Origin: Arenimonas sp. GDDSR-1
GTDB lineage: Bacteria > Pseudomonadota > Gammaproteobacteria > Xanthomonadales > Xanthomonadaceae
Reading direction: 5' to 3'
DNA length: 39,463 nt
Assembly: GCF_025980345.1 (NCBI RefSeq)
Contig: NZ_JAPDUI010000026.1
Coordinates: forward strand, 1-39,463
Each line of letters opens with the position of its first letter. Position 1 is the stretch's first letter. Shown one piece after another: positions 4,327-29,267 of this stretch. The notes under the pieces are model-generated. The model saw nothing but the letters and a program-made list of their open reading frames with translations. It was not told the DNA's origin and did no database searches. The position numbers and the translations under genes were made by a program.

Positions 4327-4663
4327 AGAATCACGGCGGCTGCAGCGGCGAAAAGCGGATACCCCGATCACGGTCATCGACGCCATGACCGGGCAGCGTC
4401 TCGGCATGGTCATCGACCTGTCCGAATCCGGCATGATGCTGAGCTCCGAACAGTCCGTGGCGGCCGACGCCCTGTTCCAGTGCGAATTGCAGTTCAGCCA
4501 TGGTGCCGCACAGCCGGTCAAGGTTGGCCTGCATGAACTCTGGAGCACCAGCGATGAGGCCAGCGGTGCCGTGCTGATCGGCTTCCGTTTCATCGACATC
4601 AGCAAGGACGACCGCATCCGCCTGCGGGCATGGGTTGCCGAACCCGGCAGCCATTACGTCTGA
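4319..4663 (+). CDS. PilZ domain protein
   Basis: A single-domain PilZ protein of 114 residues. The c-di-GMP signature is present: an arginine-rich RRLQRRK at residues 6-12 (containing R-x-x-x-R) followed by D-L-S-E-S-G at about 37-42, matching D/N-x-S-x-x-G. A later GFRFIDI fits the strand before the terminal helix. By family knowledge it should bind cyclic di-GMP and act through a partner. The ATG lies inside the last codons of the DUF1631 gene (8-base overlap), so the partner may be that protein. The pepQ start follows 44 bases after its stop, probably in the same transcript. Confidence 0.88.
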   Translation: MTEESRRLQRRKADTPITVIDAMTGQRLGMVIDLSESGMMLSSEQSVAADALFQCELQFSHGAAQPVKVGLHELWSTSDEASGAVLIGFRFIDISKDDRIRLRAWVAEPGSHYV

Positions 4664-25337: not shown

Positions 25338-25365
25338 AAAAAAACGGCCCGCAAGGGCCGTTTTT
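25338..25365 (+). terminator. rho-independent terminator after etfA
   Basis: AAAACGGCCC (25341-25350), the tetraloop GCAA and GGGCCGTTTT (25355-25364) form a perfect 10-bp stem ending in a run of five T (25361-25365), with an A-run before it. It closes the etfBA transcript and isolates the next operon. Confidence 0.9.
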
Positions 25366-25380
25366 GTGATTCGCATCACA
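25365..25380. promoter_or_regulatory. CRP/Clp-type operator palindrome
   Basis: TGTGA (25365-25369), six bases TTCGCA and TCACA (25376-25380) exactly match the CRP family consensus TGTGA-N6-TCACA. In xanthomonads the same site is used by Clp, the CRP homologue that responds to c-di-GMP. The centre lies about 49 bases before the expected transcription start of the downstream promoter. The site begins on the last T of the etfA terminator. Whether it activates or represses cannot be read from sequence. Confidence 0.7.
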
Positions 25381-25386
25381 GTTTTT

Positions 25387-25414
25387 TTGACATCGCCGCG
25401 AATCGGCCTATAGT
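25387..25414 (+). promoter_or_regulatory. near-consensus sigma70 promoter of the polysaccharide-type operon
   Basis: A perfect TTGACA (25387-25392) and TATAGT (25409-25414) are separated by 16 bases. Transcription should start near 25421, giving a leader of about 28 bases before the epimerase ATG. It is the best promoter-like sequence in the window. Confidence 0.8.
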
Positions 25415-25448
25415 AAACACGGGGAAAATACAATTCAGGGGAGATTGG

Positions 25449-26408
25449 ATGGCGAACTATCTGATCACGGGCGGTGCCGGCTTCATCGGCTCGCATTTAT
25501 GTGATGAACTGCTGGCGGCCGGGCACCATGTCCTGGTCATCGATGATCTGTCCACCGGCAGCCGCGACAACATCGCCGCGCATCTCGGCAAGGACGCTTT
25601 CGAATTCCATCAGGATACGGTGCTGAATTATCCGCTGATGGAAAGCCTGGTGCAGCGCGCCGATTACATCTTCCACCTGGCGTCGGTGGTCGGCGTGCAG
25701 AGCGTGATCGACAGTCCGGTCAAAACCATCGAAACCGGTGCGCGCGGCATGAATATCCTGCTGTCGCTGGCCGATCAGTACGGCAAAACAGTCCTGTTCA
25801 CCTCGACTTCGGAGGTGTACGGAAAATCCGAGAACCTGCCCTACCGCGAAGACGACGACATGGTGTTCGGCGGTACCCACATCGGGCGCTGGTCGTACGC
25901 CTGCAGCAAGGCGCTTGACGAGTTCCACGCCCTGGCCTATCACCGTGAACGCGGACTGCGCATCGTCGTGGTGCGCCTGTTCAATACCGTCGGCCCGCGC
26001 CAGACCGGAAAATACGGCATGGTGCTGCCCAAGTTCGTTGCCAGCGCCAAAGCCGGAACCCCGATCACCGTATACGGCGATGGCAGTCACCGGCGCTGCT
26101 TCGGGTACGTCAAGGACGTGACCTGGGCGCTGAAGCAGTTGATCGTGAAGCCCGAATGTTACGGCCGCGTGTTCAACATCGGCTCGCACGAGGAAATTTC
26201 GGTGATCGGACTGGCCGAACTGGTCCGGGAGCGCCTGGGCAGCGCCTCCGACATCGCCTATGTGCCCTATCGCGATGTGTATGGCGATAATTTCGAGGAA
26301 ACCGTCAACCGCTCGCCCTGCACCGAACGCATCGAGGCGGCCATCGGTTACGCCCCGAAAACAACCCTGCGTGAAATGATCGACGCCATCGCCGCCACGC
26401 TGCGCTGA
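25449..26408 (+). CDS. extended SDR nucleotide-sugar epimerase/decarboxylase
   Basis: A 319-residue NAD-dependent extended short-chain dehydrogenase acting on an NDP-sugar. The nucleotide motif TGGAGFIG is at 7-14, the catalytic serine region TSTSEVYG at 118-125, and the Y-x-x-x-K pair Y150/K154 (YACSK). RLFNTVGPRQTGKYGMVLPK, ITVYGDGSHRRCFGYVKDV and FNIGSHEEISV fit the UDP-glucuronate decarboxylase / UDP-hexose 4-epimerase branch. The S-E-V-Y-G box is shared with UDP-xylose synthase and the ArnA decarboxylase domain, so product identity is open. GGGGAG lies at 25438-25443. It is the first gene after the CRP/Clp site and promoter, 28 bases ahead of the glycosyltransferase. The likely role is supplying the sugar donor. 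Confidence 0.85.
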   Translation: MANYLITGGAGFIGSHLCDELLAAGHHVLVIDDLSTGSRDNIAAHLGKDAFEFHQDTVLNYPLMESLVQRADYIFHLASVVGVQSVIDSPVKTIETGARGMNILLSLADQYGKTVLFTSTSEVYGKSENLPYREDDDMVFGGTHIGRWSYACSKALDEFHALAYHRERGLRIVVVRLFNTVGPRQTGKYGMVLPKFVASAKAGTPITVYGDGSHRRCFGYVKDVTWALKQLIVKPECYGRVFNIGSHEEISVIGLAELVRERLGSASDIAYVPYRDVYGDNFEETVNRSPCTERIEAAIGYAPKTTLREMIDAIAATLR

Positions 26409-26436
26409 ACGCAGCGCCGTCTTAGAGGAGTTCACC

Positions 26437-27828
26437 ATGGCCACTGCCCCCTGGTTCGTCATCAGCCCGAATACGCTGGTCAGCCTGATCGGCCTGATCC
26501 GCGGGCCCGATAAAACCGAACCGACCCCGGTCGAGGATTGGCGTACCGCCGTCATCGACGTGGTCATTCCCGCCTTCCGCGAACAGGACAACATTGCCTA
26601 CACGCTCAGCTCATTGATGACGCAGAGCATGCAGCCGCGGCAGGTCATCCTGGTCGATGACGGCGGCAAGGACGCCACCGTGGCACGGGCCCGCGAATTC
26701 GCGCAGGCCAACGGCATGAACCTGACGGTCATCGAACGCGCCTCGTCGATCGGCAAAACGCCGACCATCAAACGCCAGGCCCGCGAATTCGACTCGGACG
26801 TCGAATTCATCCTCGACGGCGACACCTTCCTGGAAAGTCCCGACTACATCGCGCGCTGCGTGCAGGAGCTTTATCAGGGCGTCGGCATCGCCAGCGCCTG
26901 CGGCACCATCCTGCCGATGCGCATGCGCGACCGCTCTGAAATCGAATACTCCCCGCCGTTCCGGAAATACCTGGCCGGCCGGCCCTATGAAGACCCTTTC
27001 CATGAAAAAAGCAGTCTGCACCATCTCTGGTGGTGGATTACCAACACCTACCGGGACTGCCTGTACAAATTCCTGCAGCGCTTCGTCTATCTCGGCCAGA
27101 TGGTGTTCTTCGGCGGCATCACCAATCCGGTCGGCTGCGCGGTGGCATACCGCCGCAAATACATCAAGGATCTTTTCGACCGCTACGAACCGCTGTTCGG
27201 CGACGACCTGACCAACTCCGAGGATATCTTCATCGGCTTCGCGCTCAACAACGAAGGCTACCGAAACATTCAGTTGCAGGACGTGCAGGCCCGTTCGGAA
27301 GAGCCGCAGGTCCAGAAGCTGCCGCGCCAGGTCTATCTGTGGTCGTCCTCGTTCCTGCAGAGCTGCTATTACTTCGACGCCCTGATGCGCAGCCCGTTCA
27401 AGGCCCCGAAACGGCTGTGGCAGCGCATCAAGCGCAAGAACAGCGGCGAAGCGGAACGCATCGAAGAACTGCGCAAGATCAAGGAAGCCTACCGGCAGCC
27501 CTTCGGCGAAGCGCACACCCGCAGCAGCGGACGGCCGATCGGCTGGGTGATCTTCATGTCGGCCTTCGAGAAAATCGGCTTTCCGACCGCCATGATCATC
27601 CTGATCCTGCTGAAGATGTGGGAACCGCTGGCGGTCACCATCGCCGCCGAGGTCCTGCTGTCGACCTTCGTGCTCACCTTGGTCAGCAAGGGCGAGCGTC
27701 TGCGCGGATTTTTCAATGCCCTGCTGGTCACGCCGCTGCGCTATGCCTTGATGGCGTGGGATGTGGTGACCATCAGCCGCTTCGCAATTGATCTGTGGAT
27801 TACGGGGAACCGGAAATGGCGCAAATGA
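26437..27828 (+). CDS. membrane family-2 glycosyltransferase (polysaccharide synthase-like)
   Basis: 463 residues with a GT2 catalytic domain followed by a membrane-associated C-terminus. IDVVIPAFREQDNIAYTLSS begins the domain near 40. The acidic motifs are VDDGG (73-77), the metal-binding DGD (127-129) and SED (261-263, likely base). After about 380 there are two or three hydrophobic segments (IGFPTAMIILILLKMW; PLAVTIAAEVLLSTFVLTLV). The layout resembles PgaC/NodC/HasA synthases, but the processive QxxRW motif is not clear; the closest segment is LPRQVYLW (295-302). The protein may therefore be a variant synthase or a non-processive transferase. GAGGAG precedes the ATG. Its stop overlaps the next gene's ATG (ATGA). 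Confidence 0.88.
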   Translation: MATAPWFVISPNTLVSLIGLIRGPDKTEPTPVEDWRTAVIDVVIPAFREQDNIAYTLSSLMTQSMQPRQVILVDDGGKDATVARAREFAQANGMNLTVIERASSIGKTPTIKRQAREFDSDVEFILDGDTFLESPDYIARCVQELYQGVGIASACGTILPMRMRDRSEIEYSPPFRKYLAGRPYEDPFHEKSSLHHLWWWITNTYRDCLYKFLQRFVYLGQMVFFGGITNPVGCAVAYRRKYIKDLFDRYEPLFGDDLTNSEDIFIGFALNNEGYRNIQLQDVQARSEEPQVQKLPRQVYLWSSSFLQSCYYFDALMRSPFKAPKRLWQRIKRKNSGEAERIEELRKIKEAYRQPFGEAHTRSSGRPIGWVIFMSAFEKIGFPTAMIILILLKMWEPLAVTIAAEVLLSTFVLTLVSKGERLRGFFNALLVTPLRYALMAWDVVTISRFAIDLWITGNRKWRK

Positions 27829-29204
27829 AAACACTCCCTCTCGCACTGGCCGCATTGCTGGCGCTGCCGGCAGCCGCACAGGACCGCAGCCAGGAAGCGC
27901 GCGACGCTTCCGCCCGCGGCGACACCGCCACCGCCATCACCGCCATGCAGGCACATGTCGCCGCGCATCCGGACGACGTTGAGGCGAAAAAAGATCTGGC
28001 CCGCTATCTGCTCTGGACCGGCGCCTACGCCGAAGCCGACGCCCTGCTGGCGCCGATGGCCGCCAACGACCCTGAGGCCGCGGCGCTGCAGGCCAACAAT
28101 GCCGCCTGGGCCGGAAAAATCGATCAGGCCCTGCAGCTCAACGCCGCCGGCATGCAGAAATCACCGCCCGATTTCCTGGCGCAGTTCACCCAGGCCGTCG
28201 CGCTGCGCCAGACCGCGCAGGCTTACCGCGCCTGGCCGCATGTCGATGCCGCCGAAACCCTGCAGCCCGGCGGCAAAGACGTCAATGACCTGCGCCGCGG
28301 CACCCGCATCAGGACGGCATCGGAAATCACCGCAGGCTGGACGCTGCTCGATGATTCGGACGATATCCGTGCCGAACGCTTCGGCCTGTCCGCCGCCGTG
28401 CGCCTGAGCGATGACTGGCGCCTGATCGGTGGCTGGAGCAATACCGACTACCGCGCACCGATCGGCGGCGGCTACGAGCCGGTCAGTGGCGGCGACAGCA
28501 TCGATGACCGTCAGTACTGGCTGGGCGTTGCGGTCACGCCTGCGCCGGACACGCGCATCACGGCCCAACTCGGCCGCAGCGACACCGATGCCGGCGATGA
28601 CACCACGGGCCTGCTGCGGGTGGACCAGCGCATCAACGACGATTTCAGTTTCTCGGCCGGTTACGACCGCAACCGGCTCGGCATATCGCCGCGCTCGGTC
28701 TCGCTCGGACTGATGCGTGACCAATTCCTCGGCCAGATCCATTACACACCGGGCTACCACTGGACCTTCGATGCCTTCGGGTCTTACCAGGACATCGACG
28801 ACGGCAACAGCCGCAGCGAATGGCAGCTGGCCGCACGCCGGGCCGTGGTGCGCAGCAGCAAACTGCAGCTCGATCTGGGCGGTGAAGTGCAGTGGCTGTC
28901 GTTCGCCAATGCCACCGGAAACGGCTATTACGCCCCCGACAGTTACAAACGCGCGGCCCTGACCGCCAGCGCCTATCTGCCGTTCAGCGACGATGTCGGG
29001 CTGTATGCGCGGGCCGGTGTCGGTCTGCAGCGCGATGAGAGCTTCAGCAGCTGGAAAAGCGCGAACGACGTGAGCGTGGAACTGATTGCCGGCATCTTCA
29101 GCGACTGGGAACTGCGCATCTCCGCCGGCTATTCCGACCGCGCCCAGCAGGCCGGCCTGTACGATGCCAACAGCTTCGGCGTGCAGATCAAGCGGCGATT
29201 CTGA
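27825..29204 (+). CDS. TPR-containing YaiO-like outer-membrane beta-barrel protein
   Basis: 459 residues with a signal peptide (MKTLPLALAALLALPAAAQ). Residues about 20-155 are Ala-rich helices of TPR character (ARDASARGDTATAITAMQAH; AEADALLAPMAAND). From about 160 the sequence turns into amphipathic beta-strands with aromatic girdles (SEITAGWTLL; FGLSAAVRLSDDWRLIGGWS) and ends FGVQIKRRF with a terminal Phe, the usual barrel signal. This matches the YaiO/PgaA/BcsC-like logic of a TPR plus porin for polysaccharide export, though with a shorter TPR part. ATG 27825 overlaps the glycosyltransferase stop; ATG 27816 is an alternative. The terminator follows about 20 bases downstream. The export role is inferred. 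Confidence 0.8.
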   Translation: MKTLPLALAALLALPAAAQDRSQEARDASARGDTATAITAMQAHVAAHPDDVEAKKDLARYLLWTGAYAEADALLAPMAANDPEAAALQANNAAWAGKIDQALQLNAAGMQKSPPDFLAQFTQAVALRQTAQAYRAWPHVDAAETLQPGGKDVNDLRRGTRIRTASEITAGWTLLDDSDDIRAERFGLSAAVRLSDDWRLIGGWSNTDYRAPIGGGYEPVSGGDSIDDRQYWLGVAVTPAPDTRITAQLGRSDTDAGDDTTGLLRVDQRINDDFSFSAGYDRNRLGISPRSVSLGLMRDQFLGQIHYTPGYHWTFDAFGSYQDIDDGNSRSEWQLAARRAVVRSSKLQLDLGGEVQWLSFANATGNGYYAPDSYKRAALTASAYLPFSDDVGLYARAGVGLQRDESFSSWKSANDVSVELIAGIFSDWELRISAGYSDRAQQAGLYDANSFGVQIKRRF

Positions 29205-29222
29205 GCACATCGGCAACGCATG

Positions 29223-29249
29223 AAAAACCCCGCTGTCGCGGGGTTTTTT
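29223..29249. terminator. bidirectional rho-independent terminator
   Basis: AAAAACCCCGC (29223-29233), loop TGTC and GCGGGGTTTTTT (29238-29249) form a strong stem flanked by A5 and T6. It serves both the plus-strand polysaccharide-type operon and the converging CoA-transferase operon, whose last stop is 19 bases away. Confidence 0.9.
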
Positions 29250-29267
29250 GTCGAGTGTTCCGCAACA

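Follow-up and report, generated by a model that had tools for sequence, protein, structure and literature searches.

A conserved three-gene cassette of Arenimonas as a candidate compact synthase-dependent exopolysaccharide system

How few genes could suffice to make a polysaccharide and carry it across two membranes? The question is raised by a locus in Arenimonas sp. GDDSR-1 (Xanthomonadaceae), whose contig NZ_JAPDUI010000026.1 (assembly GCF_025980345.1) we analysed over positions 1 to 39,463 of the forward strand, hereafter called the window. At window positions 25449-29204 lies a cassette of three genes, encoding a short-chain dehydrogenase/reductase (SDR), a family 2 glycosyltransferase (GT2) and a putative exporter made of tetratricopeptide repeats (TPRs) and a beta-barrel; the genes are tightly coupled, with a hairpin at either side. 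We read the cassette, with a probability of roughly 70%, as a candidate compact synthase-dependent exopolysaccharide system. The SDR would convert a uridine diphosphate (UDP)-sugar, most likely UDP-glucuronate to UDP-xylose or UDP-galacturonate, as the donor for the GT2; the membrane GT2 would polymerise this donor and move the chain across the inner membrane; and the short TPR domain would receive the chain in the periplasm, from where the 16-strand barrel would release it. A receptor for cyclic di-GMP (c-di-GMP) would not be a component of the cassette. If this is true, the parts for polysaccharide synthesis and export across two membranes are held in three genes and ~1,240 amino acids, transferable whole to a laboratory strain, and the cassette would help to separate the essential parts of Pga, Pel and Bcs from their regulation and decoration.

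A coupled unit with a patchy distribution

The three frames are uninterrupted up to their stop codons. A spacing of 28 bases separates the SDR and GT2 genes, and the GT2 stop and the exporter start overlap as ATGA at 27825-27828. This layout of SDR, GT2 and barrel genes had been described in an earlier reading made from the letters alone (the sequence-only reading), and coordinates, open frames and Pfam matches agree with it. The same reading had named recurrence of the triplet elsewhere as a check, and the genome samples bear it out. Scanning the genome_contigs sample with the GT2 gave 25 loci, every one with an SDR and an exporter gene; the three genes are adjacent in 24, among which one has a frameshifted GT2 (L036) and another is cut by contig ends (L014). 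The loci come from Arenimonas, Lysobacter, Rehaibacterium, Vulcaniibacterium, Rhodanobacter, Halothiobacillus, Guyparkeria and metagenome-assembled genomes named to higher rank. The exception to the gene order is Arenimonas maotaiensis (L029, 6616-9831), where SDR and GT2 are separated by genes for a YaiO-domain barrel, for a HEAT-repeat protein and for a further GT2 of distant relationship, giving two GT2-barrel pairs within one gene row.

In the order, nine of 250 genomes have the GT2 and eight have the exporter, all eight being among the nine (hypergeometric p = 2.7e-14, uncorrected for kinship), and the exporter adjoins the GT2 in all eight. Ten of 369 genomes of the class carry the GT2 (7 genera and 7 families as coded), each together with SDR and exporter; nine have the order SDR-GT2-exporter, one of them with a stop inside the GT2 (G313), and the tenth has exporter-SDR-dehydrogenase-GT2 (G289). 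Within the genus Arenimonas, 5 of 27 genomes have the GT2, with the exporter adjoining in all five and the SDR adjacent in four and 3.4 kb off in A. maotaiensis. The genus, order, class and genome_contigs samples overlap, and their counts are not additive: L013, L014, L015 and L029, among others, are assemblies listed also as G634, G628, G623 and G616 (L013 was checked to equal L106; the others were judged by coordinates). The triplet is a real module of scattered Gammaproteobacteria whose three genes move together, conserved but patchy, since most sampled genomes lack it.

We inspected three members of the genus without the GT2. In G626, etfA (93% protein identity) and the coenzyme A (CoA)-transferase gene (98%) lie ~70 bases apart with no cassette between them; a hairpin resembling the window's downstream one is retained (L103 1690-1718) and the upstream hairpin is absent. 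The two genes are ~100 bases apart in G630 and separated by ~2 kb of other DNA in G618. Because of the cassette-free sites in G626 and G630, we take the cassette to have been gained or lost as a unit. Compared with L013, whose GT2 is 97% identical, the ratio of nonsynonymous to synonymous substitution rates (dN/dS) is 0.071 for the SDR, 0.041 for the GT2 and 0.092 for the exporter, next to 0.06 for etfA; selection on the cassette is purifying, and looser for the exporter. In sum, the three genes make up one conserved cassette, coupled in translation and under purifying selection, which a genome either has whole or lacks whole.

The predicted exporter and the exchangeable donor enzyme

The third protein begins with a signal peptide, recognised by eye. 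Pfam finds TPR_19 (1.1e-5) and, slightly below the cut-off, a PelB_C barrel (6.6e-7); the best NCBIfam model is PgaA (2.8e-14; 52 bits, cut-off 367), and a sequence search of the PDB with the exporter alone gave zero matches at E up to 1. An AlphaFold2 model built from 25 family members (predicted local distance difference test score (pLDDT) 92.0, predicted template modelling (TM) score 0.85) has nine TPR-type helices (residues 21-164) followed by a 16-strand barrel (167-458), and together with the TPR_19 match it upholds the TPR-like helices of the sequence-only reading. The first four Foldseek matches in the PDB are BcsC (5.8e-18), BcsC again (2.4e-16), PgaA 4y25 (1.1e-15) and PelB 9h80 (1.1e-15), with a modified OmpG next (1.5e-10); against PgaA 4y25 the TM-score by target is 0.87 and the root-mean-square deviation 2.9. 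PMC9384988 describes the porins PgaA and BcsC as having 16 strands. The third protein is thereby predicted to have the Pga/Bcs/Pel exporter fold, its modelled barrel belonging to the PgaA/BcsC/PelB type ahead of ordinary porins, and the possibility raised earlier that it would model as a non-porin did not materialise. The label 'YaiO-like' that the barrel had been given was wrong: no YaiO (PF19413) match appeared in Pfam or NCBIfam at E up to 1, and the exporter-family profile misses E. coli YaiO. Since model and Foldseek place the barrel with BcsC, PgaA and PelB, the exporter inference is stronger than the sequence-only reading had thought.

The cassette might instead serve another envelope task, for example glycosylation of an outer-membrane component, the barrel then being a porin with a TPR scaffold that exports no glycan. 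Such a role would suit the weakness of the sequence matches to PgaA and PelB, but not the precedence of BcsC, PgaA and PelB over ordinary porins in the fold comparison, the exporter's place beside the GT2 in eight of eight order genomes, or the polysaccharide-modifying enzymes linked in some relatives; we regard it as highly improbable.

For the SDR, the nearest solved structures are UDP-glucuronate decarboxylases (UXS), ahead of other SDRs (4lk3, 5.7e-49 when the protein is searched alone; 2.3e-63 from the profile of its family). Plasmid relatives at E up to 1e-60 number two records in total, at 47.8% (Streptomyces) and 44.5% identity (Haloplanus), and both adjoin a nucleotide-sugar dehydrogenase gene. 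Among the cassette loci, L063 has a TviB-like dehydrogenase gene between SDR and GT2 (367 bits, against a TviB cut-off of 592) and L025 has one ~2.6 kb beyond the exporter. Because the plasmid SDR relatives adjoin dehydrogenases and L063 holds its TviB-like gene, our best guess for the donor is a UDP-uronate derivative, a tentative guess that we put somewhat short of even odds. The window's genome, 91% complete, has one strong match to the UDP-glucose/guanosine diphosphate (GDP)-mannose dehydrogenase family (236.6 bits) and a second below the cut-off (19.5 bits). We also considered a link to a UDP-N-acetylhexosamine-uronate substrate and set it aside: genome-wide counts lend it no support, as TviB-like genes are common in the order (186 of 250 genomes, and 7 of the 8 order genomes with the triplet) and the window's genome yielded none at E up to 1e-80.

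The donor enzyme appears to be exchangeable. Outside Arenimonas, SDR identity follows GT2 identity (for example 52% and 49% between L016 and L063). The window's SDR shares 38-45% identity with 29 of 30 non-Arenimonas SDRs and 28% with that of L062; its GT2 reaches 74% identity to Lysobacter. Arenimonas stands next to Lysobacter in the GT2 tree (support 94/83) and on a separate long branch in the SDR tree (99/97, long branches flagged). By these comparisons of identity and tree position we judge that the Arenimonas lineage replaced its SDR and retained GT2 and exporter, a swap which suggests that the secretion core may accept a changed sugar donor. The SDR of L062 is a third type (28-31% identity in a 14-row table), and an additional GT2 gene lies upstream of it (L062 6537-7460). 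As to the source of the exchanged SDR, a search at E up to 1e-80 over 250 genomes of the order found, besides itself, only G027 at 49%, and the 369 class genomes gave zero matches (E up to 1e-85); position alone suggests that it arrived with the YaiO-HEAT-GT2 block of A. maotaiensis.

The glycosyltransferase and the weight of the evidence

Hydropathy places hydrophobic segments at the C-terminus of the GT2, in agreement with the sequence-only reading, and only a weak one at the N-terminus. The window copy has the motifs DDG (74-76), DGD (127-129), SED (261-263) and Q298-x-x-L-W302, seen in an alignment of 26 rows, and DxD and SED are kept in 35 of 35 GT2 rows, which comprise the window, loci L013-L037 and nine loci from L058-L068. 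The frameshifted L036 is inside this motif count and out of alignment A1 and the trees; L014 is out of alignments A2 and A3 and kept in the trees; L062 is represented by the first piece of its GT2 alone in the identity table, motif count and tree; L064 and L066 are outside the 35 rows and the trees; and a paralogue in L021 is in A1 and outside the 35 rows. The best NCBIfam model is PgaC (6.6e-13, 48 bits against a cut-off of 422), with which the GT2 aligns over the GT-A part only (~residues 36-170). A plasmid search with the GT2 gave zero matches at E up to 1e-20.

Several observations weigh against a compact exopolysaccharide system. The main doubt, which concerns processivity of the GT2, comes from the place of QxxRW, assigned by motif order along the chain and not by structure alignment: each of the 35 rows has Q and W there, but the Arg is absent throughout, with Leu in 27 rows, Met in 7 and Lys in 1. 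The GT2 model is mediocre (pLDDT 66.5), and because Foldseek ranks the mannosyltransferase PcManGT 6yv7 first, with BcsA and hyaluronan synthase among the next matches (8snc, TM-score by query 0.55), the fold would suit a processive synthase and a simple membrane transferase alike. Neither GT2 nor exporter reaches any curated NCBIfam cut-off, and the SDR matches LegB, RmlB, UXS and ArnA all well below theirs. The UDP-glucose/GDP-mannose dehydrogenase family, present in 17 of 17 triplet genomes and 13 of 14 controls, does not discriminate. Genes for Wza-like and PilZ proteins elsewhere in the genome would allow outside help or regulation. The ninth order genome, G249, has a GT2 at 46% identity with neither SDR nor exporter alongside, and in the comparison with A. 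maotaiensis the same rough method gives a higher dN/dS of 0.30 for the SDR, 0.21 for the GT2 and 0.46 for the exporter.

The altered QxxRW place raises the question whether its Arg is required for processive synthesis. Were the GT2 non-processive, it would build a short oligosaccharide, or else transfer a single sugar onto a lipid carrier; the barrel would then export or display the product, a surface oligosaccharide or glycolipid. That view would account for the missing Arg, the first rank of PcManGT, a PgaC alignment confined to the GT-A part and the weak N-terminal hydrophobic segment. It sits less well with the invariant DxD and SED motifs, with BcsA and hyaluronan synthase among the top Foldseek matches, with the high polymers that exporters of this fold named in PMC9384988 serve, and with the deacetylase linked or fused in some relatives; on balance we think it unlikely.

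The absence of SDR and exporter beside the G249 gene, the higher dN/dS against A. maotaiensis (0.21-0.46), the additional linked genes of some relatives and their exporters of up to ~1,175 amino acids could also mean that the window holds the remnant of a bigger operon whose other genes were lost, decaying in a 2.0-Mb genome. The three frames are nevertheless intact and coupled, dN/dS against the nearest relative (0.04-0.09) is like that of etfA (0.06), and Guyparkeria has the bare triplet as well; we give decay very little credence. The G249 gene itself (L064 9593-10999) looks like a cassette relic: it is a lone paralogue with a LysR-type neighbour, and a gene upstream is akin to the acyltransferase gene found ahead of the cassette in Lysobacter.

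Pfam and NCBIfam show no PilZ, MshEN or other regulatory domains in the three cassette proteins, and the sole PilZ match in the genome (91% complete) lies at window 4334-4639 (+), ~21 kb upstream of the cassette. Two further observations concern GT2 genes in relatives. Upstream of the cassette in L021 (6894-8528) is a second GT2 paralogue (~50%) that has lost SED and Q-x-x-L-W and is perhaps inactive or regulatory. The GT2 gene is disrupted by an in-frame stop in L062 (8772-10160) and by a frameshift in L036 (10001-11376), with SDR and exporter frames open in both; sequencing error or decay may explain these breaks, either of which fits.

Optional parts and relation to known systems

Tailoring genes accompany the triplet in some relatives. 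By tblastn over 36 loci, a deacetylase gene stands beside four (L017, L026, L065, L066) and an AT3+SGNH acyltransferase gene beside another four (L016, L027, L028, L068); the other loci had zero matches to the deacetylase and acyltransferase queries, and the window has neither gene. Exporter lengths range from 459 amino acids up to open frames of ~1,175, and two of ten Pfam-scanned exporters (L060, L061) contain an internal polysaccharide deacetylase domain, PF01522 (3e-22 and 2.4e-18), between TPR arrays. A gene faintly similar to endoglucanases (E 0.12) adjoins the deacetylase-containing exporter of L061 and has a homologue in L060. Additional GT2 genes occur in three loci (L021, L029, L062). 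Wza, Wzx and Wzy genes were absent among neighbouring open reading frames (ORFs) in four Pfam scans of ten each, some ORFs having been picked by coding signal alone, which speaks against the concern that a polymerase, Wza or Wzx is always linked. Guyparkeria (L034) has the bare triplet again, with annotated downstream neighbours for a sulfate permease and a stress protein.

The phrase 'reduced to three genes', used in the sequence-only reading, holds for the window, where the neighbours encode electron transfer flavoprotein (ETF), CoA-transferase and pyridoxal phosphate (PLP) enzymes, but not for relatives with a deacetylase, an acyltransferase or a fused deacetylase. The window copy would then be the bare core, with GT2 and exporter as a fixed pair, the SDR exchangeable, and trimming or decorating enzymes optional in relatives. 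It is conceivable, though less likely than not, that such loci form a separate undescribed class: a c-di-GMP-independent core of QxxLW-type GT2 and TPR/16-strand exporter, into which lineages plug at least three SDR types and tailoring modules (free deacetylase, exporter-fused deacetylase, O-acyltransferase), making different polymers.

Synthase-dependent systems, as described in PMC7112194, comprise a synthase, a c-di-GMP receptor or co-polymerase, a periplasmic modifying enzyme, and TPR plus pore. Set against that list, the window has TPR plus pore and a plausible synthase, and lacks the receptor or co-polymerase and the modifying enzyme. The closest published parallel is E. coli NfrB-NfrA with WecB (the N4 glycan receptor; PMC8669469, PMC8669472), which likewise combines a GT2 and a TPR/16-strand exporter with an epimerase for the donor; linked epimerase or acetyltransferase genes are reported there for some genomes. 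The two differ in several respects. The cassette family profiles match neither NfrA nor NfrB; the donor enzyme is WecB in one and an extended SDR in the other; and NfrA has 990 amino acids against 459 for the cassette exporter. According to PMC8669469, all NfrB homologues found there retain DxD, TED and QxxRW, and the cassette GT2 departs from the NfrB type (QxxRW, usually MshEN) at the QxxRW motif. Compactness by itself is no mark of a new type, because NfrB-NfrA with WecB is similarly small and already published; of the earlier suggestion of an unusually small member or a new type, the smallness stands for the window and 'new type' was too strong.

PgaABCD, the PNAG system, resembles the cassette in that GT2 and exporter have their best NCBIfam matches in PgaC and PgaA respectively, the barrel fold is common to both, and the deacetylase stretch inside the L060 and L061 exporters matches PgaB models. 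It differs in that the scores lie far below the cut-offs (48 against 422 for PgaC, 52 against 367 for PgaA), PgaB and PgaD do not adjoin, and an SDR is present. PelB and BcsC share the 16-strand exporter with a TPR domain, but in PMC9384988 they are predicted to have 19 TPR motifs, against about four and a half in the cassette exporter. Bcs and Pel partner genes are missing from the cassette operon. E. coli yaiS-yaiP-yaiX-yaiO is likewise a small locus of GT2, outer-membrane barrel and accessory enzyme; YaiO (257 amino acids) is unmatched by the exporter profile, and YaiP weakly matches the GT2 over the GT-A part. Xanthomonas xagABCD, from the same bacterial order, is a glycosyltransferase operon that serves a biofilm polysaccharide (PMC3609779), a likeness of description. 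XagA may be akin to TPR exporters. Judged by matches to their sequence families, the cassette is not Pga, Nfr or YaiO, and it would work like synthase-dependent systems. In the open-access literature searched we recognised no description of this triplet, which is weak evidence of absence.

The signals around the cassette (Table 1) bear out the sequence-only reading in part. The one strong promoter it had named is the sole site detected in the region and agrees with consensus at 11 of 12 positions; shuffled sequence yields a mean of 0.9 such sites, so the match alone is weak and suggestive. Of the terminators it had placed on both sides, the hairpins stand out from shuffles, but a terminator scan reported neither, their T tracts being absorbed into the stems.

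Table 1. Features of the cassette and of two related exporters (window positions unless a locus is named)
Feature	Position	Strand	Basis
Hairpin terminator 3' of etfA, upstream boundary of cassette	25340..25365	.	11-bp core stem; -22.3 kcal/mol, z -4.8 vs shuffles
Sigma-70-like promoter (predicted), TTGACA-16-TATAGT	25387..25414	+	11/12 consensus positions
SDR nucleotide-sugar enzyme, 319 amino acids, lineage-specific exchanged subtype	25449..26408	+	Pfam Epimerase 4.9e-51; PDB 4lk3 5.7e-49; identity table, trees
Membrane GT2, candidate polysaccharide synthase, 463 amino acids, C-terminal membrane segments	26437..27828	+	Pfam Glycos_transf_2 7.2e-16, alignment, motif counts, Foldseek
Outer-membrane exporter (predicted), 459 amino acids, overlaps GT2 stop by ATGA	27825..29204	+	AlphaFold2, Foldseek, NCBIfam PgaA below cut-off
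Hairpin terminator, downstream boundary, common to convergent CoA-transferase gene	29220..29251	.	-21.8 kcal/mol, z -5.1 vs shuffles
Deacetylase-containing exporter, exporter and modifying enzyme in one chain	L060 4838-8362	-	
Deacetylase-containing exporter, exporter and modifying enzyme in one chain	L061 10461-13994	+	

The GC content of the cassette stretch is similar to that of its flanks. By Pfam, etfB-etfA lie upstream, and downstream on the opposite strand follow two CoA-transferase genes, a Cys/Met-metabolism PLP enzyme and a PLP enzyme with CBS domains. The downstream terminator stretch (window 29199-29249) has copies at 88% and 80% identity on two further contigs of the genome (C11, C82).

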